This document shows positions 45,782-61,360 of a stretch of DNA of 64,000 nt, one piece after another. The DNA is from Palleronia pelagia (GTDB taxonomy: Bacteria > Pseudomonadota > Alphaproteobacteria > Rhodobacterales > Rhodobacteraceae). The DNA lies in assembly GCF_900110115.1 (NCBI RefSeq), contig NZ_FOCM01000004.1:310001-374000 (forward strand). Direction: 5' to 3'. The first letter of the stretch is position 1. Each line of letters opens with the position of its first letter. Position numbers and translations under genes: made by a program. Below the pieces are notes generated by a model, which made no database searches, was not told where the DNA came from, and was given only the letters and a program-made list of their open reading frames with translations.

Positions 45782-47194
45782 ATGGTGCGTGTGCTGTCCC
45801 TCCTGCTGGCCGTGGGCTTGCTCCTGCTGTCGGCGTGGCAGTTGGAACGGGCCAAGGACGGGCTGGACATCCGTCACGACCGTATCGGCGACACGCCCGC
45901 CACGTTCCTCACCCGCGCCGGTCGCACGCCCGAAGGCTGGGTCATCGTCTCGCACGGTTTCGCCGGATCGCGGCAGATGATGCACGCGCTGTCGCTGAGC
46001 CTGGCGCGCACGGGGCTGGGCGTGATCAGTATCGACAGCATCGGCCACGGGCGGCATCCGGGGTTGCTGTCGCCTGACGTGACGCGGATCGAAGGCACCA
46101 CGGCGCAACTGGTCGACCAGATGGGCCAAGTAATCGCGGCGGCGCCCGGCCCGGTCGTGGCGCTGCTGGGGCATTCTATGGCGACCGACATCATCCTGCG
46201 CGCTGGGCGCGCGGCCGGGATCGGGCAGCTGGTCGCCATCTCGATGTATTCCGAGACCCTGTCGCCCGATTGGCCGCCCGCGCTGCTGGTGGTCTCGGGC
46301 CAGTGGGAATCGCGGCTGAGGGACGTGGCGCTGGACGCCGCGCGGATGGTCGAGGCCGACGTGCTCGAGGGCGAGACGGCGGAAGAAGGCGAGGTCCGAC
46401 GCCGCACCGCCGTCGCGCCCTGGGTGGGCCACGTGGGTGTCCTGTGGTCGCCGACCACCGCGCGGGCCGCCCGCAATTGGCTGACCGGCGCCGCCACGCC
46501 GCCCGCGCTGACCGGGCCGTGGATCGTCCTTCTGCTGGGATCGATGCTGGCGGCGGGCCGGGTCGCCACCGGCTGGGCCGCCAGGGGCGACCTGGCACCG
46601 GCCCTGCCCGCCCGCAGCTTCTGGCTTGCCGGGCTTCTGCCGCTGCCGCTGGCCGGCCTCGGCGCGCTGGCGGTATCGGACGCGGCGCTGTTCGGCATGG
46701 CGGGCTTCGCGCCGCTGGGCCTTGCGCTGGCCGTGCCCGGCATGGCGTGGCTGGCGGTGGGATGGTCGCGACTGGGGAGGCCCGGCGCGGGGCTGGCGCT
46801 GTTCGCTCTCTGGTCGCTCGCCTTCGCCCTGCTGCTGGACCGCTACGGCGCGTCGTTCCTGCCCACCGGGCCGCGCGTCGCGCTGGCACTGGCGCTGCTG
46901 CCGGCGACGCTGGCCTATGCCCTGGGCGAGGCCGTCCTGCTGGCGGGCAGCGGGATCGTCCGGCGGGTCGCCCTGCGCCTGGCGGTGCTGGCGCTGCTGG
47001 GCGGGCTCATGTTCGCAGCCCCCGCCCGGATCGGCCTGACCTTCACAGTGCTGCCGGTGCTGGTGCTGTTCTGGCTGGTTTTCGGCACGGTCGCGCGCCC
47101 CATCGCCCGTCGCCGTCCGGGCGCGGCGGGGCTGGGACTGGGCGCGGCGCTGGCATGGTCCATCGCCGCGTCAACGCCGCTGTTCTCGGCCTAG
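45782..47194 (+). CDS. Alpha/beta hydrolase fused to a polytopic membrane domain
   Basis: A 470-residue protein. It has an N-terminal membrane anchor (about 1-20), then an alpha/beta hydrolase domain (about 40-240) with VIVSHGFAGS and the nucleophile elbow LGHSMATD (Ser; the second Gly of GxSxG is Ala). A C-terminal half follows with about seven or eight helices (from about 240). The hydrolase also shows GHGRHP and a late His in PWVGHVGV. ATG 45782 is used; TTG 45773 would add three residues. Its substrate is unknown. The stop shares a CTAG with the convergent alcohol dehydrogenase. Confidence 0.8.
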   Translation: MVRVLSLLLAVGLLLLSAWQLERAKDGLDIRHDRIGDTPATFLTRAGRTPEGWVIVSHGFAGSRQMMHALSLSLARTGLGVISIDSIGHGRHPGLLSPDVTRIEGTTAQLVDQMGQVIAAAPGPVVALLGHSMATDIILRAGRAAGIGQLVAISMYSETLSPDWPPALLVVSGQWESRLRDVALDAARMVEADVLEGETAEEGEVRRRTAVAPWVGHVGVLWSPTTARAARNWLTGAATPPALTGPWIVLLLGSMLAAGRVATGWAARGDLAPALPARSFWLAGLLPLPLAGLGALAVSDAALFGMAGFAPLGLALAVPGMAWLAVGWSRLGRPGAGLALFALWSLAFALLLDRYGASFLPTGPRVALALALLPATLAYALGEAVLLAGSGIVRRVALRLAVLALLGGLMFAAPARIGLTFTVLPVLVLFWLVFGTVARPIARRRPGAAGLGLGAALAWSIAASTPLFSA

Positions 47195-48336
47195 ATCAGG
47201 GCGTCGAACAGCCCGCGCACGTTGTCCTTCGTCAGCTCCACCGGGTTGCCACCGCAGCTGGGGTCTTTCAGCGCCATCTCGACCAGCTCGTCCACGCGGT
47301 CGTCGCCCACGCCCATGGCGCCGAGCTTGCGGGGGATGTCGAAGCGGTCGTTGAAGTCCTGCACGAAGGTGCGGAACCCGTCGAAGCCGCCATCGACGCC
47401 CAGGTAGGACGCCGCGCGGTCGAACCGGTCGCGGATCACGCTTTCGTTCAGGTCCAGCACGGCGGGCATGCAGACGGCGTTCGTCGTGCCGTGATGGGTG
47501 CCGTAGACCGCGCCCACCGGGTGGCTCAGCGCGTGGATCGCACCCAGCCCCTTCTGGAAGGCTACGGCGCCCATTGCCCCCGCGCTCATCATGTTGGCGC
47601 GCGCTTCGATATCGCTGCCGTCGTCGTAGGCGCGCGGCAGGTTGTCGATCACCAGCCGCATGCCTTCCAGCGCGATGCCCTGGCTCATGGGGTGATAATG
47701 GGGCGACGAGAACGCCTCAACGCAATGGGCGAAGGCGTCGAGTCCGGTGCCGGCGGTGATCGATTTCGGCATGCCCACCGTCAGCTCGGGATCGCAGATC
47801 ACCACGCTCGGCAGCACCTTGGGGTGGAAGATGATCTTCTTCACGTGGGTCTCGGAATCGGTGATGACCGACGCCCGCCCCACCTCGGACCCCGTCCCGG
47901 CGGTGGTCGGCACCGCCACGATGGGCGCGATGGCGTCGGCGTCGGCGCGGGTCCACCAGTCGCCGATATCCTCGAAATCCCAGACCGGGCGCACCTGTCC
48001 CGCCATGAAGGCGACCATCTTGCCCAGGTCCAGCCCCGAGCCGCCGCCGAAGGCGATCACCCCGTCATGGTCGTTCTCGCGGTAGACCTTCAGCCCGGCC
48101 TCGAGATTGCGCTCGTTCGGGTTGGGGTCCACGTCGGAAAAGATCGCGCGGCCGAGGCCCGCGGTCTCGATCAGGTCCAGCGTGCGGCGGGTGATGTCCA
48201 TGGCCGCGAGGCCGCGGTCGGTGACCAGCAGCGGCTTGCTGATGCCCGCGGCGATGCAGGCGGCGCCGATCTCGTCGATGCGGCCCGCGCCGAAGCGGAT
48301 GGCGGTGGGATAGGACCAGTTGGCGGTCATCGACAT
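47191..48336 (-). CDS. Iron-containing alcohol dehydrogenase
   Basis: A group III Fe-dependent NAD(P) alcohol dehydrogenase of 381 residues. GGGSGLDLGK binds the nucleotide; VPTTAGTGSE and the metal ligands in GTGLDAFAHCVEAF, HALSHPVGAVYGTHHG are present. It lies five bases after the aldehyde dehydrogenase stop, so alcohol and aldehyde oxidation are coupled. The substrate is not readable; context suggests an amino alcohol or its gamma-glutamyl derivative. Confidence 0.9.
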   Translation of the reverse strand: MSMTANWSYPTAIRFGAGRIDEIGAACIAAGISKPLLVTDRGLAAMDITRRTLDLIETAGLGRAIFSDVDPNPNERNLEAGLKVYRENDHDGVIAFGGGSGLDLGKMVAFMAGQVRPVWDFEDIGDWWTRADADAIAPIVAVPTTAGTGSEVGRASVITDSETHVKKIIFHPKVLPSVVICDPELTVGMPKSITAGTGLDAFAHCVEAFSSPHYHPMSQGIALEGMRLVIDNLPRAYDDGSDIEARANMMSAGAMGAVAFQKGLGAIHALSHPVGAVYGTHHGTTNAVCMPAVLDLNESVIRDRFDRAASYLGVDGGFDGFRTFVQDFNDRFDIPRKLGAMGVGDDRVDELVEMALKDPSCGGNPVELTKDNVRGLFDALI

Positions 48337-48341
48337 GGGCG

Positions 48342-49718
48342 TCAGGCTTTCTTGAGGTGGTAGGATTTCGGGCGGGTCAGCGCGTGGTAGCCCAGCACCG
48401 ACAGCCCCGCGCCAAGGCCGGTATCCTTGCAGCCGGTCCAGCACAGCGCGGGGTCGAGATAGTCGCAGCGGTTCATGAAGACGGTGCCGGTCTCCAGCCG
48501 CGCGGCGATGGCCTGCGCCGCGTCGATATCGCGGGTGAAGATCGCGGCGGTCAGGCCGAACTGGCTGTCGTTCATCTTGGCGATGGCGTCCTCGTCGTCC
48601 TTCACTGGCATGATGCAGACCAGCGGGCCGAAGGTCTCGTCCCGCATCACGCGCATGTCGTGGGTCACGTCCACCAGGATCTGCGGCGTCAGGTAAGCGC
48701 CCCCGTCGTCGGCCGGGTCGGTTTCGATCAGCGCGCGGGCGCCCTGCGTTACAGCCTCGCGGGTCTGGGCGCGCACCTCGTCGGCGAAGCGCACGTTCGC
48801 CATGGGGCCTAGCGTGGTTTCGGGGTCCAGCGGGTTGCCGAGCTTCAGCGCCTCGACCCACGCCACGGCCCGTTCGACGAACGCGTCGTAGAGGCTTTCG
48901 TGCACGTAGATCCGCTCGATCCCGCAGCAGCACTGGCCCGCGTTGAAGATCGCGCCGTCCATCAGCCCGTCGACGGCGGCGTCGACATCGGCATCGGCGC
49001 GGACATAGCCCGGATCCTTGCCGCCCAGCTCGGTCGCCACGGGGGTGAAGGTGCCCGCCGCCGCGATCTCCATCGCCTTGCCGCCACCGACCGAGCCGGT
49101 GAAGTTCACGAAGCCGAAGCGGCGCTCGGCGATCAGCGTGGCGGTCGTGTCGTGGTCGAGGAAGACGTTCTGGAACACGTCCTCGGGCACGCCCGCCGCG
49201 TGGAACGCCTCGACCAGCCGTTCGCCCACCTGCAGGGTCTGGGTGGCGTGCTTCAGCATCACGGTGTTCCCGGCGATGAGCGCCGGGGCCACGGTGTTGA
49301 TCGCGGTCATGTAGGGATAGTTCCACGGCGCCACGACCAGCACGACGCCGCGCGGCTCGCGCGTGATCTGGCGCAGCGCCTTGTCGCTGTCTTCGACCAC
49401 CATGGGGGCCAGAGCGTCCTTGGCGATGTCGGCCATGTGGCTGGCGCGCTCGTCGAAGCCGCCGAACTCGCCGCCATAGCGCACCGGGCGGCCCATCTGG
49501 TGGGCGAGCTCCACCGCCATGCGGTCGGTGGTCCTGCCCACCTCGGCCACGCCGGCGCGGACCAGCGCGATGCGGTCCTCCAGCGGGCGCGCGGCCCAGT
49601 CGGCCTGTGCGGCGCGGGCGCGGTCGCAGGCGGCACGTGCGGCATCGAGATCCAGGGTCTCGCGTTCCAGGTACACCGAGCCATCGATGGGCGAGATGCA
49701 TTTCAGGGTCTTGGTCAT
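48342..49718 (-). CDS. Aldehyde dehydrogenase (NAD-dependent)
   Basis: A 458-residue aldehyde dehydrogenase. Catalytic Cys is in FNAGQCCCGIERI and the general base Glu in ATELGGKDPGYV; NAD-binding VAPWNYP and NFTGSVGGGKAM are present. It resembles the succinate-semialdehyde/glycolaldehyde-type class. Gene order puts it between the GS-like ligase and the alcohol dehydrogenase on the same strand. Confidence 0.93.
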   Translation of the reverse strand: MTKTLKCISPIDGSVYLERETLDLDAARAACDRARAAQADWAARPLEDRIALVRAGVAEVGRTTDRMAVELAHQMGRPVRYGGEFGGFDERASHMADIAKDALAPMVVEDSDKALRQITREPRGVVLVVAPWNYPYMTAINTVAPALIAGNTVMLKHATQTLQVGERLVEAFHAAGVPEDVFQNVFLDHDTTATLIAERRFGFVNFTGSVGGGKAMEIAAAGTFTPVATELGGKDPGYVRADADVDAAVDGLMDGAIFNAGQCCCGIERIYVHESLYDAFVERAVAWVEALKLGNPLDPETTLGPMANVRFADEVRAQTREAVTQGARALIETDPADDGGAYLTPQILVDVTHDMRVMRDETFGPLVCIMPVKDDEDAIAKMNDSQFGLTAAIFTRDIDAAQAIAARLETGTVFMNRCDYLDPALCWTGCKDTGLGAGLSVLGYHALTRPKSYHLKKA

Positions 49719-49728
49719 GGTTGTTCCT

Positions 49729-51093
49729 TCAGGCCTGCTCGAACCCGCGGGCGATTTCCCAGTCGGTCACGGCGCGGTCATATTCTTCCTGCTCCCACTC
49801 GGCGGCGCGGGTGTAGTGGTCGACCACATCGTCCCCCATGGCGGCGCGGAGCATGTCGCTCTCGCGCAGGGTCTCGGTCGCCTCGCGCAGGGTGCGGGGG
49901 ATCTCGGGCGTATCCGCGGATTCATAGACATCGCCGCTGGTCGGGGCCTGAAGCTCCATCTCGTCGGCAATGCCGCGCAGCCCGGCGGCCAGCAGGGCCG
50001 CCTGAGCCAGGTAGGGGTTCAGGTCCGATCCGCCGATCCGGCACTCGACCCGCACGCCCTTTGTGCCCGCGCCGCACAGGCGGAACCCGGCGGTTCGGTT
50101 GTCCACCGACCACACGGTGCGCGTGGGCGCGAAGGTGCCCTTGGCGAAGCGCTTGTAGCTGTTGACGTAGGGCGCGAGGAAGAAGGTGATGTCGCGGGCG
50201 TAGTGGATCAGCCCGGCGAGGAAGTTCTGCATCAGCTCGGACATGCCCAGCTCGTTGCTGTCGTCGAAGAAGGCCGGATCGCCGTTCTGCCACAGCGACA
50301 TGTGGACATGGCTGGACGACCCGACCTTGTCGGCGCGCCACTTGGGCAGGAACGAGGCCGACACGCCGTGCTGCCACGCGATCTCCTTCACCGCGTGCTT
50401 GCCGATGGTGTGGTGATCGGCGCAGTCCAGCGCACCGGCGTAGCGGATGTTCAGCTCCTGCTGGCCGGTCTCGGCCTCGCCCTTGGTGCATTCCACGGGG
50501 ATGCCCGCAGCGTAGAGGTGGTTGCGCAGGGGCCGCAGCAAGCCTTCCTCCTTGGTCGTCTGGAACAGCGCGTAATCCTCGTTGAAGCCGTTCAGCGGCA
50601 CGAGGTCGCGATAGCCGGATTTCTGCAGGTCGCGCAGCGCGCCCTCGAACAGGAAGAATTCCAGCTCGGTCGCCATGGCCGCGTCTAGGCCAAGGTCGGC
50701 CAGCCGCGCGACCTGCCGCTTCAGCATCTGGCGGGGGCTGTGGGCCACGGGTTCGTGGCTGTGGTGATCCAGCACGTCGCCCAGCACCAGCGCGGTCTTT
50801 TCCAGCCACGGCACGTGGCGCAACGTGGTCAGGTCGGGGCGCAGGGTATAATCGCCATAGCCGCCCTCCCAGCTGGTGGCGCGGTAGCCGTCGGGCGTCG
50901 CCATCATCAGGTCGGTTGCCAGCAGGTAGTTGCAGCAGTGGGTTTCCTCGATCGCGTTGTCGAGGAAGTCGCGGACATGGAACCGCTTGCCCTGGAGCCG
51001 GCCCTGCATGTCGACAAGCGCCACCAGGACGGTGTCAATCTCACCCGTGGCGGCCAGTTCGGTGAGCGTGTCGAGCGAGAGATTGCCAGCCAT
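49729..51093 (-). CDS. Glutamine-synthetase-like gamma-glutamyl-amine ligase
   Basis: A 454-residue GS-family protein with the catalytic core: ATELEFFLF, GEAETGQQELNI, SSSHVHMSLW, NSYKRFAKGTFAPT and VECRIGGSDLNPY. Such catabolic GS homologues (PuuA, IpuC types) join glutamate to an amine instead of ammonia. It lies with an aldehyde and an alcohol dehydrogenase and an amidohydrolase, which matches that role. The N-terminal domain is the short form. ATG 51093 is chosen; the upstream frame to 51303 overlaps dctP. Confidence 0.85.
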   Translation of the reverse strand: MAGNLSLDTLTELAATGEIDTVLVALVDMQGRLQGKRFHVRDFLDNAIEETHCCNYLLATDLMMATPDGYRATSWEGGYGDYTLRPDLTTLRHVPWLEKTALVLGDVLDHHSHEPVAHSPRQMLKRQVARLADLGLDAAMATELEFFLFEGALRDLQKSGYRDLVPLNGFNEDYALFQTTKEEGLLRPLRNHLYAAGIPVECTKGEAETGQQELNIRYAGALDCADHHTIGKHAVKEIAWQHGVSASFLPKWRADKVGSSSHVHMSLWQNGDPAFFDDSNELGMSELMQNFLAGLIHYARDITFFLAPYVNSYKRFAKGTFAPTRTVWSVDNRTAGFRLCGAGTKGVRVECRIGGSDLNPYLAQAALLAAGLRGIADEMELQAPTSGDVYESADTPEIPRTLREATETLRESDMLRAAMGDDVVDHYTRAAEWEQEEYDRAVTDWEIARGFEQA

Positions 51094-51118
51094 GGGTGCG
51101 GTCCTCGTTGCGTTCGTG

Positions 51119-51151
51119 AAAACGGGGCGGCACCGGACAGGCGCCGCCCCG
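51119..51151 (-). terminator. Rho-independent terminator after dctP
   Basis: On the minus strand a perfect nine-base stem (CGGGGCGGC at 51151-51143, partner at 51131-51123, 11-base loop) is followed by TTTT (51122-51119). It lies 10 bases after the dctP stop and before the GS-like gene, so it separates or attenuates the TRAP genes from the dehydrogenase genes. Confidence 0.85.
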
Positions 51152-51161
51152 CGCGTTGGTC

Positions 51162-52205
51162 TCAGCCGAAGGTGTAGGGTGCGCCTGCGGTGTTGATGAC
51201 CTGGTTGTACTCGCGGAAGATGTCGACGACGCGCTGGTGCGTCTCGGATTCCTGCGCGATCTCGTCCCAGAAGGCCACGGCGGCCTGCTCGACCTCGGCC
51301 CATTCGGAGGCAGGCACCTCGCGCAGGGCCAGCTTGTCACCGCGGGCGCGCAGCCGCGCCTCGCCGCCCCAGTACCACTGATTGCGGTAGAAGTGTCCGG
51401 CCTCGATCCCCGCCATGACGACGGATTTCAGGTGATCCGGCAGATCCGCCCAGCGTTCCTGGTTTACGAAGAACGACCCGATCCACGCGCCCGAGATGTT
51501 ATTGGTCAGGAAATAGTCGGTCACGTCCGCCCAGCCCACGGTATAGTCCTCGGTGATGCCGGACCACGCCATGCCGTCCAGCTCGCCGGTCTGCACCGCG
51601 ACCTCGGCATCCTCGTAGGGGATGTTCACCGGCACCACGCCGAATTGGGTGAGGAAGCGCCCGGCCGTGGGGAAGGTATAGAGCTTCAGGCCGTCGAGGT
51701 CGGCGACCGACGTGATTTCCTTCGTGGTGTTGAAGTTGCACGGGTCCTGCCCCGCCGCCGACAGCCACTGCACGCCGACCTTCTGGTATTCCTCGCGCCA
51801 GATGTCGGCCAGGCCGTACTGGTTGAACAGCACCGGCACGTCGAGGATCGACTTGGTGGCAAAGGGGAAATACCCGCCGAAGACGCGCATGGGCGTGGGC
51901 GACGCCATGGAGTCGTCGTCCGAGTGGACGCCGTCGATGGTGCCCCGCTGCAGCGCCTGGAACAGCTCGCCCGTGGGGACGATCTGGTCGGCGTAGAACA
52001 GCTCGATCTCGAGCTCGCCGTTCGCGTTGGTGTTGATGTAGTCGATGATGGGCTTGGTCACCTGCTCGCCCAGCGCGGCGCCGGCATAGGTCTGGAACCG
52101 CCAGCGGATGGGCTCCTGCGCGTGCAGGACGGCGGGCGCGGCGAGCGTGGCGGGCGCGGCGACGGCGGCACCCTGCAAGAACTTGCGTCTCGTGGTCATG
52201 GTCAT
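51162..52205 (-). CDS. dctP: TRAP transporter substrate-binding protein DctP
   Basis: A 347-residue TRAP receptor with a Tat-type signal (TTRRKFLQG, hydrophobic core, cut near LHA). In the body FQTYAGAALGEQV and the Arg-rich ligand site YPTAGRFLTQ-like stretch fit TakP-type receptors, which bind organic acids. AGGAG precedes ATG 52205; ATG 52199 is an alternative. A terminator hairpin follows the gene. Its ligand is probably the compound degraded by the enzymes next to it. Confidence 0.9.
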   Translation of the reverse strand: MTMTTRRKFLQGAAVAAPATLAAPAVLHAQEPIRWRFQTYAGAALGEQVTKPIIDYINTNANGELEIELFYADQIVPTGELFQALQRGTIDGVHSDDDSMASPTPMRVFGGYFPFATKSILDVPVLFNQYGLADIWREEYQKVGVQWLSAAGQDPCNFNTTKEITSVADLDGLKLYTFPTAGRFLTQFGVVPVNIPYEDAEVAVQTGELDGMAWSGITEDYTVGWADVTDYFLTNNISGAWIGSFFVNQERWADLPDHLKSVVMAGIEAGHFYRNQWYWGGEARLRARGDKLALREVPASEWAEVEQAAVAFWDEIAQESETHQRVVDIFREYNQVINTAGAPYTFG

Positions 52206-52269
52206 GAACTCCTTGTTGGTTTGAAAGGGCGGGGCGGTTCGGGCCGCCCGCTTTGGTTATGCGCGAATG

Positions 52270-53598
52270 TCAGTAATCGTAGATCAGCCCCGGCAGCCAA
52301 AGCGCGATCTGCGGGAACACCATGACGAGGATCAGCGCCACGATCATCACGCCCACGAAGGGAATGATCGAGCGATAGATGTCGGTGATGGTGATCTCGG
52401 GCGGCGCCATGGCCCGCATCAGGAACAGGTTATAGCCGAAGGGCGGCGTCATGTAGGCGATCTGGCAGGTGATCGTGTAAAGCACGCCGTACCAGATCAA
52501 GTCGAACCCCAGCGCGCCAACCAGCGGCACGTAAAGCGGCGCGACGATCACCAGCATGGCGGTGTCGTCCAGGAACGTGCCCATCAGCAGGAACGACAGC
52601 TGCATCAGGATCAGGATCACCCAGGGGTTCAACCCCCATTGCGTGGTGAACAGGTTCTCGATCGCCTTCACCGCGCCCAGCCCGTCGAACACCGCGCCGA
52701 AGGCCAGCGCGGCCAGGATGATCCACATGAACATGCAGGTGATGGCCAGGGTCTGGCGGATCGATGTCTCGAACACCTGCCGGGTCATCCGGCCCTTGGC
52801 GACGGCGGCGAAGAAGGCCGCGAGCGCGCCGATGGCCGAGCTTTCCACCAGCGACGTCCAGCCGTTCACGAAGGGCACCATCATCACCGCGAAGATGCCC
52901 ACGGGCAGAAGCCCCGCCAGCAGCAGGCGGTATTTCTCACCCCGTGTGATCTGGTCCAGCTCGCTGCGGTCGATGGTGGGGCCCAGGTTCGGCGAGACCC
53001 GGCAGCGGATGGCGATGTAGATGATGAAAAGCGCCGCCATCATCAGCCCCGGCACGGCCCCCGCGAGCCAGAGCTGGCCCACCGGCTGCCGCGCGATCAT
53101 CGCGTAGAGCACCAGCACCACCGAGGGCGGAACGAGGATGCCCAGGGACGAGCCGGCCTGGATCACCCCCGTGACCATCAGCTTGTCGTAGTTGCGTTTC
53201 AGAAGCTCGGGCAGCGCGATGGTCGCGCCGATCGCCATGCCCGCCACCGACAACCCGTTCATGGCCGAGATCAGCACCATCAGCCCGATGGTTCCGATGG
53301 CCAGCCCGCCGCGCAGGCCGCCCATCCAGACGTGGAACATGCGATAGAGGTCGTCGGCGATTTTGCTTTCGGACAGGACGTAGCCCATGAAGATGAACAT
53401 CGGCAGCGTCAGCAGCGGGTACCAGCGCATGAGCTTGATCGCCGCCGCGAACCCGATGTCGTAGCCGCCCCTGTCGCCCCAGAGCAGGACGGCCGCCACC
53501 ACCGCGACGAAGCCGATGGCGCCGAAGACCCGCTGCCCGGTGAGAAGCAGCAGCATCATCGACGAGAACATGAGAAGGGCGATCATCTCATAAGGCAT
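52270..53598 (-). CDS. dctM: TRAP transporter large permease DctM
   Basis: A 442-residue permease of the DctM family with about 12 helices. LFIFMGYVLSES-type and GVIQAGSSLGILVPPSVVLV segments are characteristic. It carries solute against the gradient using sodium or proton flow (family knowledge). It overlaps dctQ by 11 bases at its start and is followed by dctP after 64 bases that hold a GC hairpin (about 52224-52252). Confidence 0.93.
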   Translation of the reverse strand: MPYEMIALLMFSSMMLLLLTGQRVFGAIGFVAVVAAVLLWGDRGGYDIGFAAAIKLMRWYPLLTLPMFIFMGYVLSESKIADDLYRMFHVWMGGLRGGLAIGTIGLMVLISAMNGLSVAGMAIGATIALPELLKRNYDKLMVTGVIQAGSSLGILVPPSVVLVLYAMIARQPVGQLWLAGAVPGLMMAALFIIYIAIRCRVSPNLGPTIDRSELDQITRGEKYRLLLAGLLPVGIFAVMMVPFVNGWTSLVESSAIGALAAFFAAVAKGRMTRQVFETSIRQTLAITCMFMWIILAALAFGAVFDGLGAVKAIENLFTTQWGLNPWVILILMQLSFLLMGTFLDDTAMLVIVAPLYVPLVGALGFDLIWYGVLYTITCQIAYMTPPFGYNLFLMRAMAPPEITITDIYRSIIPFVGVMIVALILVMVFPQIALWLPGLIYDY

Positions 53599-54136
53599 CG
53601 CCCTGCCTTTCGCCGTGATGGAAGCGCCCGACCTTTTCGCCGGTGCGCAGGAAGATGATGTCCTTCGCCAGCTCGCTGAGCGCCTGCAGCAGCATCAGCG
53701 CGATGCCGACGCACATGGTCACCTTGATCGGCCACATGTAGGGCCGCCACGGGCTGGAACTGCGCTCGCCCCCGTACTTGAAGCTGTAGGACGTGCTTTC
53801 GATCCCGCCCCAGAGCAGGATCACGAGGTAGACGATCAGGAAGAAGACCGTGAAGCAGTCGATCCACGATTTCTTGCGCATGGACCATTCGCCGTAGAAC
53901 AGGTCCATCCGCACGTTGGCCCCCATCTGCATCGCGTAGGGGCCGCCGAGGATGTAGTAGCCGACCATGACGAACTGCGCCATTTCCAGCGTCCAGAGCC
54001 GGGGGGTGAAGAACGCCTTGTTCATGCTGGAATAGAGCAGGATGCCCATCAGCACGAAGATGCCGAACATCATCACCCGGCCGAGGCCGTAGTTGAAGCC
54101 GTCCACCAGCCTGACATAGCGGCGCAAGACGTTCAT
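53588..54136 (-). CDS. dctQ: TRAP transporter small permease DctQ
   Basis: A 182-residue, four-helix protein of the DctQ family, forming the small membrane subunit of the TRAP transporter with DctM. The segment TLEMAQFVMVGYYILGGPYAM lies in the centre. Its start overlaps the amidohydrolase stop by four bases (ATGA). Confidence 0.9.
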   Translation of the reverse strand: MNVLRRYVRLVDGFNYGLGRVMMFGIFVLMGILLYSSMNKAFFTPRLWTLEMAQFVMVGYYILGGPYAMQMGANVRMDLFYGEWSMRKKSWIDCFTVFFLIVYLVILLWGGIESTSYSFKYGGERSSSPWRPYMWPIKVTMCVGIALMLLQALSELAKDIIFLRTGEKVGRFHHGERQGDAL

Positions 54137-54900
54137 TCGGCGGCCTTCGCGTCAGGTCCCGCCAGCCCTTGCCGCAGCATCGGCAGAAGGTGGTCGGCCA
54201 TGGCGGCCGCGCGGTCGGGCGTGTCGATCAGGTCGTTGCGGATCTCCAGCATCAGGGCGGGCCGTCCGTGGTCGTCGCCATGGATCTTCAGCATGTGGCC
54301 CACCCCGTCGGCCGGGCCGTAGGGTTCGTTTACCCGCGCGTCGTAGGTGCCGCGCGCGGCCTCGATGTCGCAGGCGCGCCGGGCGAGGTTGCCGTCTGCG
54401 TTGTGCAGGAAGCCCAGTTCGACCGTGCGGGGCTGGCCGTCGAAGACCGGCGTGAAGCTGTGGATGGTCAGCAGGGTGACGGGGGTCCCGGCCTGCCGCT
54501 CCTGCGCCGCCATGACCTCGGCCAGGCGGTCGTGGAAGGGCTGCGCGACGCGGTCGTGGCGCTCCTGCCGGGCGGAGGCGTCCAGCCCGCGGTTTCCGGG
54601 CACGTCGAACACCTCTGACCGATCGGGGATGGCGCTTGCGGCCTCCAGCGGGCGGTTCAGGTCATAGACCAGGCGCGAGATCCGGGCGGCGACCAGTGGC
54701 GCGTCCAATGCCCGGGCCAGGGGCGCCGCCACGTCCAGCGCGCCGATATCCCAGGCCGCGTGCGATGCGCGCGCGGCGGCGTCCAGACCCAGGCCGTCCA
54801 GCGAGGCGGGAATGTGATTGGCGGCATGTTCGCAGACCACGACCAGCGGCGCGCCGCGCCCTGCCCCGATCACCTCGACCGTTTGCCAATCATCGTCCAA
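54133..54900 (-). CDS. N-formylglutamate-amidohydrolase-like enzyme
   Basis: A 255-residue zinc amidohydrolase of the HutG/FGase family. Zn ligands fit VCEHAANHIP and TIHSFTPVFDG, and YDLNRPLE and EIRNDLID are family motifs. Classical members split N-formylglutamate in histidine degradation, but no other hut gene is here. It leads the TRAP operon. An amidase for gamma-glutamyl compounds is a plausible alternative role in this cluster (inference). Confidence 0.82.
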   Translation of the reverse strand: MDDDWQTVEVIGAGRGAPLVVVCEHAANHIPASLDGLGLDAAARASHAAWDIGALDVAAPLARALDAPLVAARISRLVYDLNRPLEAASAIPDRSEVFDVPGNRGLDASARQERHDRVAQPFHDRLAEVMAAQERQAGTPVTLLTIHSFTPVFDGQPRTVELGFLHNADGNLARRACDIEAARGTYDARVNEPYGPADGVGHMLKIHGDDHGRPALMLEIRNDLIDTPDRAAAMADHLLPMLRQGLAGPDAKAAE

Positions 54901-54955
54901 GCCGGACTTCCCCTTGCCAGATGGGATCGAGTGACGCTGGATTCCGATGGCAAGT

Positions 54956-54978
54956 CAAGGATTTTTCTGTAATCTTTG
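54956..54978. promoter_or_regulatory. Inverted repeat in the RpiR/amidohydrolase divergent region
   Basis: CAAGGATT (54956-54963) and AATCTTTG (54971-54978) form a near-perfect inverted repeat (7 of 8) with a seven-base spacer in an AT-richer patch. It lies 38 bases before the RpiR start and 56 bases before the divergent operon, a fitting place for the RpiR operator. Confidence 0.55.
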
Positions 54979-55015
54979 TTTCAGCCCGATGGGCGCTGTA
55001 GGAAAAGGAACGATC

Positions 55016-55897
55016 ATGGGCAGACGCAAGCTGGTCCGCGATCTCCTGCGGGAAAAGCAGGCCGACCTGACCGCGTCCGAGCGCAAGCTGGCCGCCGTGC
55101 TGCAGGACGGGCAATTAGTTCCGGGGCTGCAATCCATCACCAAGCTGGCCGAAAGCGCCGAGGTCTCGACCCCCACCATCGTGCGGCTGGCCCGCAAGCT
55201 GGGCTTCGACGGGTTCAACGACCTGCAGGACGCGATCCGCAGCGACGTGGCCGACGCCATGAAGCAGCCGCTGGCCAAGCTCGACCCCGGCGGGCCGATG
55301 CCGGGGGGCGACCACATGCTGTCGCGCTTCGTGACGGCGGTGTCGGACAACATCAACCGCACGCTGGAACGGCTGGATACCGCCGCCTTCGACCGCGTGG
55401 CCGGGGTTCTGGCCGACCCGTCGCGGCGGCTCCACTTGCTGGGCGGGCGCATCACCCGGTCGAACGCGGCATATTTCTTCAACCACCTGCAGATCATCCG
55501 CCCCGGCGTCACGCTTCTGGACAGCGCGCCCAGCGTGTGGCCGCAGGCGCTGCTGGACATCGATGGCGGCGCGGTGCTGATCGTCTTCGACATCCGCCGC
55601 TACGAAAAGGGGCTGGAAAAACTCGCCACGCTCGCGCGCGGCCAGGGGGCCGAGATCGTGCTGTTCACCGACATTTGGGGATCGCCCATCGAACGCCATG
55701 CCGACCACACCTTCCGCGCCATGGTCGAGGTGCCATCGGCTTGGGACAGCACGCTGGCGTTGAACCTGCTGATCGAGGCGCTGATCGCCGAGGTGCAGGC
55801 CCGCCGCTCCGACAGCAGCGCCCAGCGCATCGCCGCGCTCGAAGACATGATCGGCGAAAGCCGGATTTTCCGGTCGGGACAGGGCGCCGCCGACTAA
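55016..55897 (+). CDS. RpiR-family transcriptional regulator
   Basis: A 293-residue regulator: N-terminal HTH_6 domain (about 1-77, with SITKLAESAEVSTPTIVRLA) and a C-terminal SIS domain (about 125-260), which usually binds phosphosugars but in some members binds amino compounds. GGAAAAGGAA precedes ATG 55016. It is divergent from the amidohydrolase/TRAP/dehydrogenase operon, which it probably controls. Its stop overlaps the convergent kinase stop. Confidence 0.9.
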   Translation: MGRRKLVRDLLREKQADLTASERKLAAVLQDGQLVPGLQSITKLAESAEVSTPTIVRLARKLGFDGFNDLQDAIRSDVADAMKQPLAKLDPGGPMPGGDHMLSRFVTAVSDNINRTLERLDTAAFDRVAGVLADPSRRLHLLGGRITRSNAAYFFNHLQIIRPGVTLLDSAPSVWPQALLDIDGGAVLIVFDIRRYEKGLEKLATLARGQGAEIVLFTDIWGSPIERHADHTFRAMVEVPSAWDSTLALNLLIEALIAEVQARRSDSSAQRIAALEDMIGESRIFRSGQGAAD

Positions 55898-59242: not shown

Positions 59243-59857
59243 ATGAGAGTCTTGATCGCAGACGATCACGATCTGCTTCGCGACACACTGGTCGAATACC
59301 TGCAAACACAGGGCAGTTTCGAGGTGGCCTGTGCGGGCGATCTCGACACCGCCCTGACAATGGTCGAGAACGGCGCGACTTTCGACTTGATCCTTCTGGA
59401 CTTGAAGATGCCCGGCATGGACGGTCTGAACGGCCTGACCCGGGCCTTGGCCGCGGGCGGCGGTCAGCGCGTCGCGCTGATGTCCGGCAATTGCACTCGC
59501 CAAACTGCCGAGCGCGCGATCGAACTTGGCGCGGCGGGTATCCTGCCCAAGACCATGTCCGCGAAATCGATGGTCAACGCCATGAAGTTCATGGCCCTGG
59601 GCGAGGTTTACGCCCCCGCCGACTTCCTGAACGCCATGGACAGCGCCGAGACGCATCCGCTGACACGGAACCTGACAAAGCGCGAGCAGCAGGTCCTGCG
59701 CGGCTTGACCGAAGGCAAGGCGAACAAGGAAATCGCCCGCGATCTCGACGTGCAGGAACCGACGGTCAAGCTTCACATGAAAACGCTCTATCGCAAGCTC
59801 GGCGTGGCGAACCGCACCCAGGCGGCGCTGATCGCGCGAGAGGCGGGGCTTTATTGA
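59243..59857 (+). CDS. NarL/LuxR-type response regulator
   Basis: A 204-residue regulator: receiver domain (1-120) with IADDHDLLRD, the phospho-acceptor Asp in LILLDLKMPGMDG and Lys in ILPKTMS. The LuxR-type HTH at about 140-200 reads LTKREQQVLRGLTEGKANKE and the recognition helix EPTVKLHMKTL. ATG 59243 is used because MRVLIADDH is the canonical start; the frame is open upstream. It is divergent from the SUOX-like/kinase genes and likely their output. It overlaps the convergent xylB end by seven bases. Confidence 0.92.
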   Translation: MRVLIADDHDLLRDTLVEYLQTQGSFEVACAGDLDTALTMVENGATFDLILLDLKMPGMDGLNGLTRALAAGGGQRVALMSGNCTRQTAERAIELGAAGILPKTMSAKSMVNAMKFMALGEVYAPADFLNAMDSAETHPLTRNLTKREQQVLRGLTEGKANKEIARDLDVQEPTVKLHMKTLYRKLGVANRTQAALIAREAGLY

Positions 59858-61293
59858 TCCAGCCGCGCCGCCTCGCGTAGACCGGCAAAGCGTTCTGCCC
59901 GCTCACGCAGCGCGTTGGCCAGTTCGGAATCGGGCGAAACGGTGCTGGCGACAGTCGGCTGGCTGCGGAACGCGCCCGAGCCCTCTCCGGCGGCCATGGC
60001 GCCCAGCCGCGCCGCCCCCAGCGCCGCACCGTGATCGCCCGCCTCCGGCAGGTCGATTTCGACCTCCAGCGCCGATGCGATGATCTTCAGCCAGTGCTGC
60101 GAACGGGCGCCGCCCCCGGTGGCCGCGATCCGGTCCAGCTTCGTGCCCGCCGCCGCGATCGCGTCCGCCGACTGGCCCAGCCCCAGCGCCACGCCCTCGA
60201 GCACCGCACGGGTCAGGTCCGCCCGGCCCGTTGCGTGCCCCAGCCCGTGGAACATGCCGCGCAGGCTCGCGTCGTTGTGCGGCGTCCGCTCGCCCGACAG
60301 GTAGGGCAGGAAAGTGACGGGGCCGGGCGTGGCGGGCGTGTCGCCCAGCTCGGCCACCAGCTCGCCGGGCGTCGCGCCGAGAATTCCGGCCAGCCAGTCG
60401 AGCGCCGAGGCCGCCGACAGCATGACGCCCATCTGGTGCCAGGTCTCGGGCAGCGCGTGGCAGAACGTGTGCACCGCGCTTTCGGCGTTGGGGCGATACC
60501 CCTCGGTCGCGGCGAACAGCACGCCCGAGGTGCCCAGCGACACGAAGCCCTGCCCCTCGCCCAGAACGCCCATGCCCACTGCGGTGGCGGCGTTGTCCCC
60601 GGCCCCGCCCGCGACTGGAATGCCCGCACGCAGTCCGAAGCGGCTTGCCAGGTCGGCGCGCAGGTCGCCTGCCCGCGCGGCGCCTTCGACCAAGCGCGGC
60701 ATGTGCTCGCGCGTCAGCCCGGTCGCCTTGAGACAGGCGTCGGACCAGTCGCGCGCGGCCATGTCGAGCCAGCTGGTCCCGGCGGCGTCCGACATCTCGG
60801 ATACCCGCTCGCCCGTCAGCCACAGGCGCAGGTAGTCCTTGGGCAGCAGCACGCAGTCAGTGCGGTCGAACAGCTCGGTCTCGTGGCTGCGCATCCAGGC
60901 CAGCTTGGGCGCGGTGAAGCCCGGGAAGACGATGTTGCCGGTCACCGCGCGGAACGGCCCCTCGGCATCCATGCGCGCGGCCTCGGCGTGGGCGCGCGTG
61001 TCGTTCCAGAGAATCGCGGGACGCAGGACGGCATCGGCGGCGTCCAGGCACACCGCACCGTGCATCTGGCCCGAGAGCCCGATCCCCGCCACCTGCGACA
61101 GGTCGTGGGTCTCGGCCAACTGCGACAGGCAATCCTCGGTCGCGCCGATCCACTGGGCGGGGTCCTGCTCGGACCAGCCGTCATGGGGACGCTCCACCGT
61201 GAGGGCGGAGTCGGCCTGGCCGACCGGCGCGCCGGCCTCGTCGATGAGCAGGGTCTTAACTCCCGAGGTTCCAAGGTCGATGCCCAGATACAT
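59851..61293 (-). CDS. xylB: Xylulokinase
   Basis: A FGGY kinase (480 residues) phosphorylating D-xylulose. MYLGIDLGTSGVKTLLID starts the protein; GLSGQMHG, AILWNDTRAHAEA, GGAGDNAATAVG and GGGARSQHW are XylB motifs. GGAAGGA six bases upstream selects ATG 61293 over 61314. No xylose isomerase or xylose transporter is nearby; it is the last gene behind a Liv-type importer on the same strand. Confidence 0.9.
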   Translation of the reverse strand: MYLGIDLGTSGVKTLLIDEAGAPVGQADSALTVERPHDGWSEQDPAQWIGATEDCLSQLAETHDLSQVAGIGLSGQMHGAVCLDAADAVLRPAILWNDTRAHAEAARMDAEGPFRAVTGNIVFPGFTAPKLAWMRSHETELFDRTDCVLLPKDYLRLWLTGERVSEMSDAAGTSWLDMAARDWSDACLKATGLTREHMPRLVEGAARAGDLRADLASRFGLRAGIPVAGGAGDNAATAVGMGVLGEGQGFVSLGTSGVLFAATEGYRPNAESAVHTFCHALPETWHQMGVMLSAASALDWLAGILGATPGELVAELGDTPATPGPVTFLPYLSGERTPHNDASLRGMFHGLGHATGRADLTRAVLEGVALGLGQSADAIAAAGTKLDRIAATGGGARSQHWLKIIASALEVEIDLPEAGDHGAALGAARLGAMAAGEGSGAFRSQPTVASTVSPDSELANALRERAERFAGLREAARLDQ

Positions 61294-61360
61294 GTGCCGT
61301 CCTTCCCATTTCATGTTAGCGCCAAGATCAGGGGAAACCGCGAGGCATGCAAGCGGTCGC

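Follow-up and report, generated by a model that had tools for sequence, protein, structure and literature searches.

Positions 47191-55897 of the window, as we call the whole 64,000-nucleotide stretch of Palleronia pelagia DNA that was analysed, carry eight genes, each an intact frame (Table 1). Seven of them lie on the minus strand and encode an iron-type alcohol dehydrogenase (ADH), an aldehyde dehydrogenase (ALDH), a glutamine-synthetase-like (GS-like) ligase, the parts of a tripartite ATP-independent periplasmic (TRAP) importer and an FGase-family amidohydrolase; the gene of an RpiR-family regulator is divergent from these on the plus strand. The first-pass annotation had placed these genes here, and its placement is borne out by these frames and by Pfam matches that are all past the cut-off: Fe-ADH (E 5.6e-49), Aldedh (1.1e-115), Gln-synt_C (1.3e-96), FGase (5.4e-39), DctP (5.9e-23), DctM (1.5e-66) and DctQ (1.2e-17), with HTH_6 (1.4e-14) and SIS (1.1e-14) for the regulator. 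The D-x3-H and H-x13-H pattern is also found in the alcohol dehydrogenase. Relative to the called starts, the intervals used in the searches were one codon longer for the ligase and three codons longer for the ADH.

Table 1. Features of the gene cluster, in window coordinates
Feature	Positions	Strand	Basis and remarks
RpiR-family regulator (HTH_6 + SIS)	55016..55897	+	Pfam; ATG 55016, 293 aa; equivalent of MED193_10021
Divergent promoter/operator region	54901..55015	.	prediction only
FGase-family amidohydrolase, predicted gamma-glutamylglycine amidohydrolase (GGAH)	54133..54900	-	Pfam
TRAP small membrane subunit, DctQ, EtoV equivalent	53588..54136	-	Pfam; gene order
TRAP large membrane subunit, DctM, EtoW equivalent	52270..53598	-	Pfam; gene order
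TRAP binding protein, twin-arginine-like leader, EtoX equivalent, type A	51162..52205	-	homology and residues
Glutamine-synthetase-like ligase, predicted ethanolamine gamma-glutamylase (ETAGA)	49729..51093	-	Pfam; ATG 51093, 454 aa
Aldehyde dehydrogenase, predicted gamma-glutamyl-aminoacetaldehyde dehydrogenase (GAADDH)	48342..49718	-	Pfam; gene order
Iron-type alcohol dehydrogenase, predicted gamma-glutamylethanolamide dehydrogenase (GETADH)	47191..48336	-	Pfam; ATG 48336, 381 aa

Judging by its sequence and gene order, this cluster is in all probability the ethanolamine (eto) operon known from the literature, here carried on the chromosome. The accessible part of the article describing that operon (PMC10132767, 2023; all statements from it are limited to this part) gives, for Phaeobacter sp. 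MED193, a single operon of RpiR, GGAH, EtoV, EtoW, EtoX and ETAGA, then GAADDH and GETADH. Its enzyme names are gamma-glutamylglycine amidohydrolase, ethanolamine gamma-glutamylase, gamma-glutamylacetaldehydeamide dehydrogenase and gamma-glutamylethanolamide dehydrogenase. There EtoX binds ethanolamine with a Kd of 7.9 +/- 1.9 uM, phosphorylethanolamine raises five of the operon products (Table 2 of PMC10132767), the pathway is attributed to prior work on Chromohalobacter salexigens and Agrobacterium tumefaciens, and it is said to be common in the ocean. The MED193 operon (MED193_10021 to _10056) has the same eight kinds of genes in the same order as the window. Operon and pathway are thus already published, the window being a further copy. 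For these genes a pathway had been proposed in which an amino alcohol, with ethanolamine as first candidate, is processed as its gamma-glutamyl derivative. This is supported by the operon of the same set and order and by characterised close homologues; the accompanying suggestion of novelty for the TRAP importer and the FGase-family hydrolase in such a pathway was wrong, since PMC10132767 describes both.

Following the published scheme and the homologies, from which every enzymatic step in this organism is inferred, the TRAP importer would take up ethanolamine and the GS-like ligase would couple it to glutamate, using ATP. The alcohol group of the resulting gamma-glutamylethanolamide would then be oxidized to the acid, gamma-glutamylglycine, by the iron-type alcohol dehydrogenase and the aldehyde dehydrogenase, and the FGase-type amidohydrolase would split this into glycine and glutamate, recovering the latter. 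The same principle of gamma-glutamylation reportedly underlies the IpuC pathway for isopropylamine and alaninol. To our knowledge, the Streptomyces GlnA4 pathway functions without such a TRAP importer, RpiR regulator or FGase-type hydrolase. What it has in common with the window is a GS-like enzyme for ethanolamine, GlnA4 being a producer of gamma-glutamylethanolamide according to the accessible part of PMC6529630.

The ethanolamine system of C. salexigens, reportedly first described by Vetting et al., supplies the closest solved relative of the binding protein: the nearest sequence in the PDB is 4UAB/4XF5 (E 1.2e-141), the next one scoring 3.3e-17. As far as the accessible parts of the two sources go, 4UAB is Csal_0678 with ethanolamine bound via Glu220 (PMC12410723), and it has no counterpart of the Arg with which TRAP binding proteins hold carboxylates (PMC4646407). 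The window protein is 63.5% identical to Csal_0678 over the aligned part; both have the glutamate that holds ethanolamine and both are missing the arginine. In the window the former is Glu219, an equation with Glu220 that depends on an inferred offset of 3 (PDB sequence index 217 versus the residue number), and at the position of the latter it has Y176, whereas an Arg occupies this position in 7/7 of its aligned own-genome paralogues (7 of the 10 other matches in that genome). Since sugars and acids are frequent substrates of systems with RpiR regulators and TRAP importers, one could take this for a TRAP cluster of the usual kind, for a sugar acid or a C4-dicarboxylate, whose neighbours have been misread. 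This is scarcely credible, given the missing carboxylate-binding Arg and an ethanolamine binder that is by far the closest solved relative. In the loci examined we saw no link of the cluster to a sugar acid, which had been named beforehand as a possible refutation.

The curated NCBIfam families do not fit any of the four enzymes, each best score shown being below its cut-off (358.9 against 500 bits for the ADH, 243.5 against 469.6 for the ligase). Two specific candidates were rejected, HutG N-formylglutamate deformylase for the amidohydrolase (28.2 bits, far under the cut-off of 278.75) and gamma-glutamylputrescine synthetase for the ligase (GGputSyn, 209.2 bits against 650). The GS-like fold behind the GGputSyn score speaks for a gamma-glutamylation of some polyamine, or of an amine lacking an alcohol group, as in the putrescine and isopropylamine pathways; with a score so far short of the cut-off, and with both the alcohol dehydrogenase and the ethanolamine-type binding protein left unexplained, we consider such a substrate very improbable. 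The PDB sequence nearest to the ligase is 5DM3 (E 1.1e-202), which we take to come from C. salexigens, followed by 11zs (1.2e-163); the amidohydrolase has a sole PDB relative at E<=0.001, namely 2odf (1.2e-57). The own genome has no second copy of the operon ligase, its three other GS-like matches being 29-34% identical, and EutB (PF06751) of the cobalamin-dependent eut pathway was not found in it (0/1), E. coli being the only positive among 14 control genomes.

The association of these genes is not a matter of chance, since the full eight-gene order recurs widely. Among 80 ligase-anchored loci, the best of 587 confirmed, 58 carry the complete set of eight with order and orientation unchanged, 13 are cut by the end of a contig or locus and 9 differ. 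In L034, L038, L040 and L064 the ADH directly follows the ligase, with no ALDH, TRAP, FGase or RpiR gene of the operon kind nearby. L073 is without the ALDH, L058 and L074 are without the binding protein, L075 is without RpiR, FGase and TRAP genes, and L082 is without RpiR, FGase and the membrane subunits. Where variant loci have gaps, additional open frames encode a GNAT protein (L048) and a glyoxalase-fold protein (L024), which give no clue to the substrate, nor does the gap of L027, in which nothing was recognised. In L075 (5508-13895) the ligase, ALDH and ADH come after an ABC importer of the phosphonate type and a HAD-family hydrolase, and this locus might serve the import and dephosphorylation of a phosphorylated ethanolamine compound.

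The divergent RpiR protein would control the operon. In the operon direction, the region between its gene and that of the amidohydrolase contains TACAGAAAAATCCTTGACT, a TTGAC -35-like element together with the left half of a TACAG-N(26)-CTGTA inverted repeat. Of 65 such RpiR-to-FGase regions, that of the window included, 58 contain TTGACA (mean in simple letter shuffles 3.6), 17, the window among them, have TACAG with TTGAC after it (0 in shuffles), and 12 have TACAG-N(22-30)-CTGTA (shuffled mean 0.18). The full inverted repeat is absent from the window region, which has kept the left half and a TTGACT and lost the right half. It is plausible that a repressor site, predicted from these motifs, lies across the promoter. 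The TACAG/TTGACA/CTGTA layout of the divergent promoter is conserved in relatives. Beyond the cluster, positions 59851-61314 encode a xylulokinase-like FGGY kinase (553 bits against the NCBIfam XylB cut-off of 380).

The binding protein has a distribution that sets it apart within the operon. It was matched in 94/149 genomes of a sample of the order (E<=1e-90) and in 47/385 of a sample of the class (E<=1e-80), four genomes (G000, G002-G004) being in both samples. The copies in the 94 genomes of the order fall into two classes, 80-100% identical to that of the window in 25 (the own genome included) and 55-67% identical in 69, with none between, and both classes occur within nine genus codes (g3, g4, g10, g19, g22, g24, g26, g34 and g37). 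Each of these genomes has a single match (93/94), apart from G133 with two of identical score. Beyond the order the gap closes, with five class members at 69-77%, of which, by their residues, four belong to type A and the fifth, covered by a partial stretch, to type B. These types are defined by residue 153, which yields 52 type A rows (the window and the own-genome copy L001 being counted apart) and 49 type B rows, including Csal_0678. On average, type A rows are 82.1% identical to one another and type B rows 82.5%, against 64.3% across the two types.

Some of these results weigh against a simple identification with the published operon. The best-characterised relative, Csal_0678, is of type B, whereas the window protein is of type A and differs from it at three positions close to where the pocket is expected (W->Q, F->Y and W->Y). 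The MED193 operon and the window were compared by gene order and annotation, so that EtoX is not assigned to a type. Finally, ligase and ADH stand together without ALDH or TRAP genes in 4/80 loci, the L034 group above.

Separation by type is confined to the binding protein. With an 80% threshold, 37 of its columns separate the types (29 at 85% once the intermediates L026, L041, L042, L047 and L051 are left out), and none does so in any of the other seven proteins. Rows in this test had at least 85% query coverage and a typed binding protein, for which reason loci without a binding protein are absent from it; the numbers of A+B rows were 26+37 for ADH, 26+38 for ALDH, 49+47 for GS, 49+43 for DctM, 27+37 for DctQ, and 26+36 for both FGase and RpiR. 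On this absence of type-separating columns from the other seven proteins we rejected the idea that type A marks an operon for a different substrate. Mean identities within A, within B and between types differ little for GS (73.0, 75.3 and 72.8) and DctM (84.2, 83.4 and 82.6), and somewhat more for DctQ (64.8, 67.0 and 61.9) and RpiR (49.1, 51.2 and 45.1).

Phylogenies were built quickly and without a mixture model. The binding-protein tree (100 rows) has one change of type, with a support of 100. On the tree of joined ADH, ALDH and GS sequences (59 loci) there are 9 changes, of which well-supported branches force at least 8, where shuffled labels give 19.6. The approximately unbiased (AU) test rejects one common clade for type A (p 2e-98); the tree of GS by itself (96 rows) has 16 changes. 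The DctM tree (92 rows) requires 10 changes, 3 of them forced (AU p 0.005), a number that falls to 6 on the 59 shared loci (AU p 0.07), and the DctQ tree (64 rows) has 6 (AU p 0.024), the signal of re-assortment with type being weaker for the membrane subunits than for the enzymes. From these counts it follows that type is in part a matter of descent, and that it re-assorts freely with respect to the enzymes and less clearly so with respect to the membrane subunits. Along five A/B pairs of loci, base identity drops over the binding-protein gene, least in L043/L055, and in one A/A pair there is no such drop. We found no remnant of a second binding protein adjoining the first; in L016, L053 and L054 a distant TRAP binding protein (<=24% identical) lies thousands of bases off.

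With respect to the ligand, Glu219 is kept in 52/52 type A and 49/49 type B rows, and in 19 of 20 further sequences, which are all that reach the position. At other positions the types differ: H94, Q153, N157, N159, Y176 and Y197 are invariant in type A (52/52), where type B has Q94, W153, F176 and W197 (49/49), H157 (45/49) and A159 (46/49). Position 197 presumably corresponds to a ligand-contact Phe of SiaP. When the 20 further sequences are added, Q153 (56 rows) and W153 (65 rows) lie on opposite sides of one branch, and the stem of the type A clade is long (0.50 changes per column). These six fixed residues and this stem could also mean that the chemistry is the same and that the altered binding protein of type A selects another small amino alcohol, such as alaninol, serinol or an N-methylated ethanolamine, as its main substrate; the ligand of 4XF5, we believe, is 2-aminopropanol. 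We think this unlikely, because the two types take one another's place in the same slot next to enzymes that have no type-specific column, with a single copy in nearly every matching genome, and because L127, L128 and L130 combine W153 with both Y176 and Y197. The latter two residues are therefore not peculiar to type A, which speaks against a sharp reading of the pocket. Mutual replacement in place, with one copy per genome, favours instead a shared main ligand, and suggests that both types bind ethanolamine; the altered residues and the long stem favour a shift, suggesting that type A has a changed affinity or range of ligands compared with type B.

It is tempting, though we offer this as no more than a tentative proposal, to regard the binding protein as an exchangeable cartridge, of which two old alleles, differing in residues of the pocket region, would have been repeatedly swapped in place with the enzymes and membrane subunits left unchanged around them, retuning the range or affinity of uptake, with type A differing from the published ethanolamine binders. 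A search of the literature found no title on two such types of binding protein, which is weak evidence of absence. The two types within a shared TRAP importer constitute a natural experiment on how far a binding protein can change without losing its fit to one set of membrane subunits, and they would make it testable whether bacteria adjust their uptake of ethanolamine by allele replacement.

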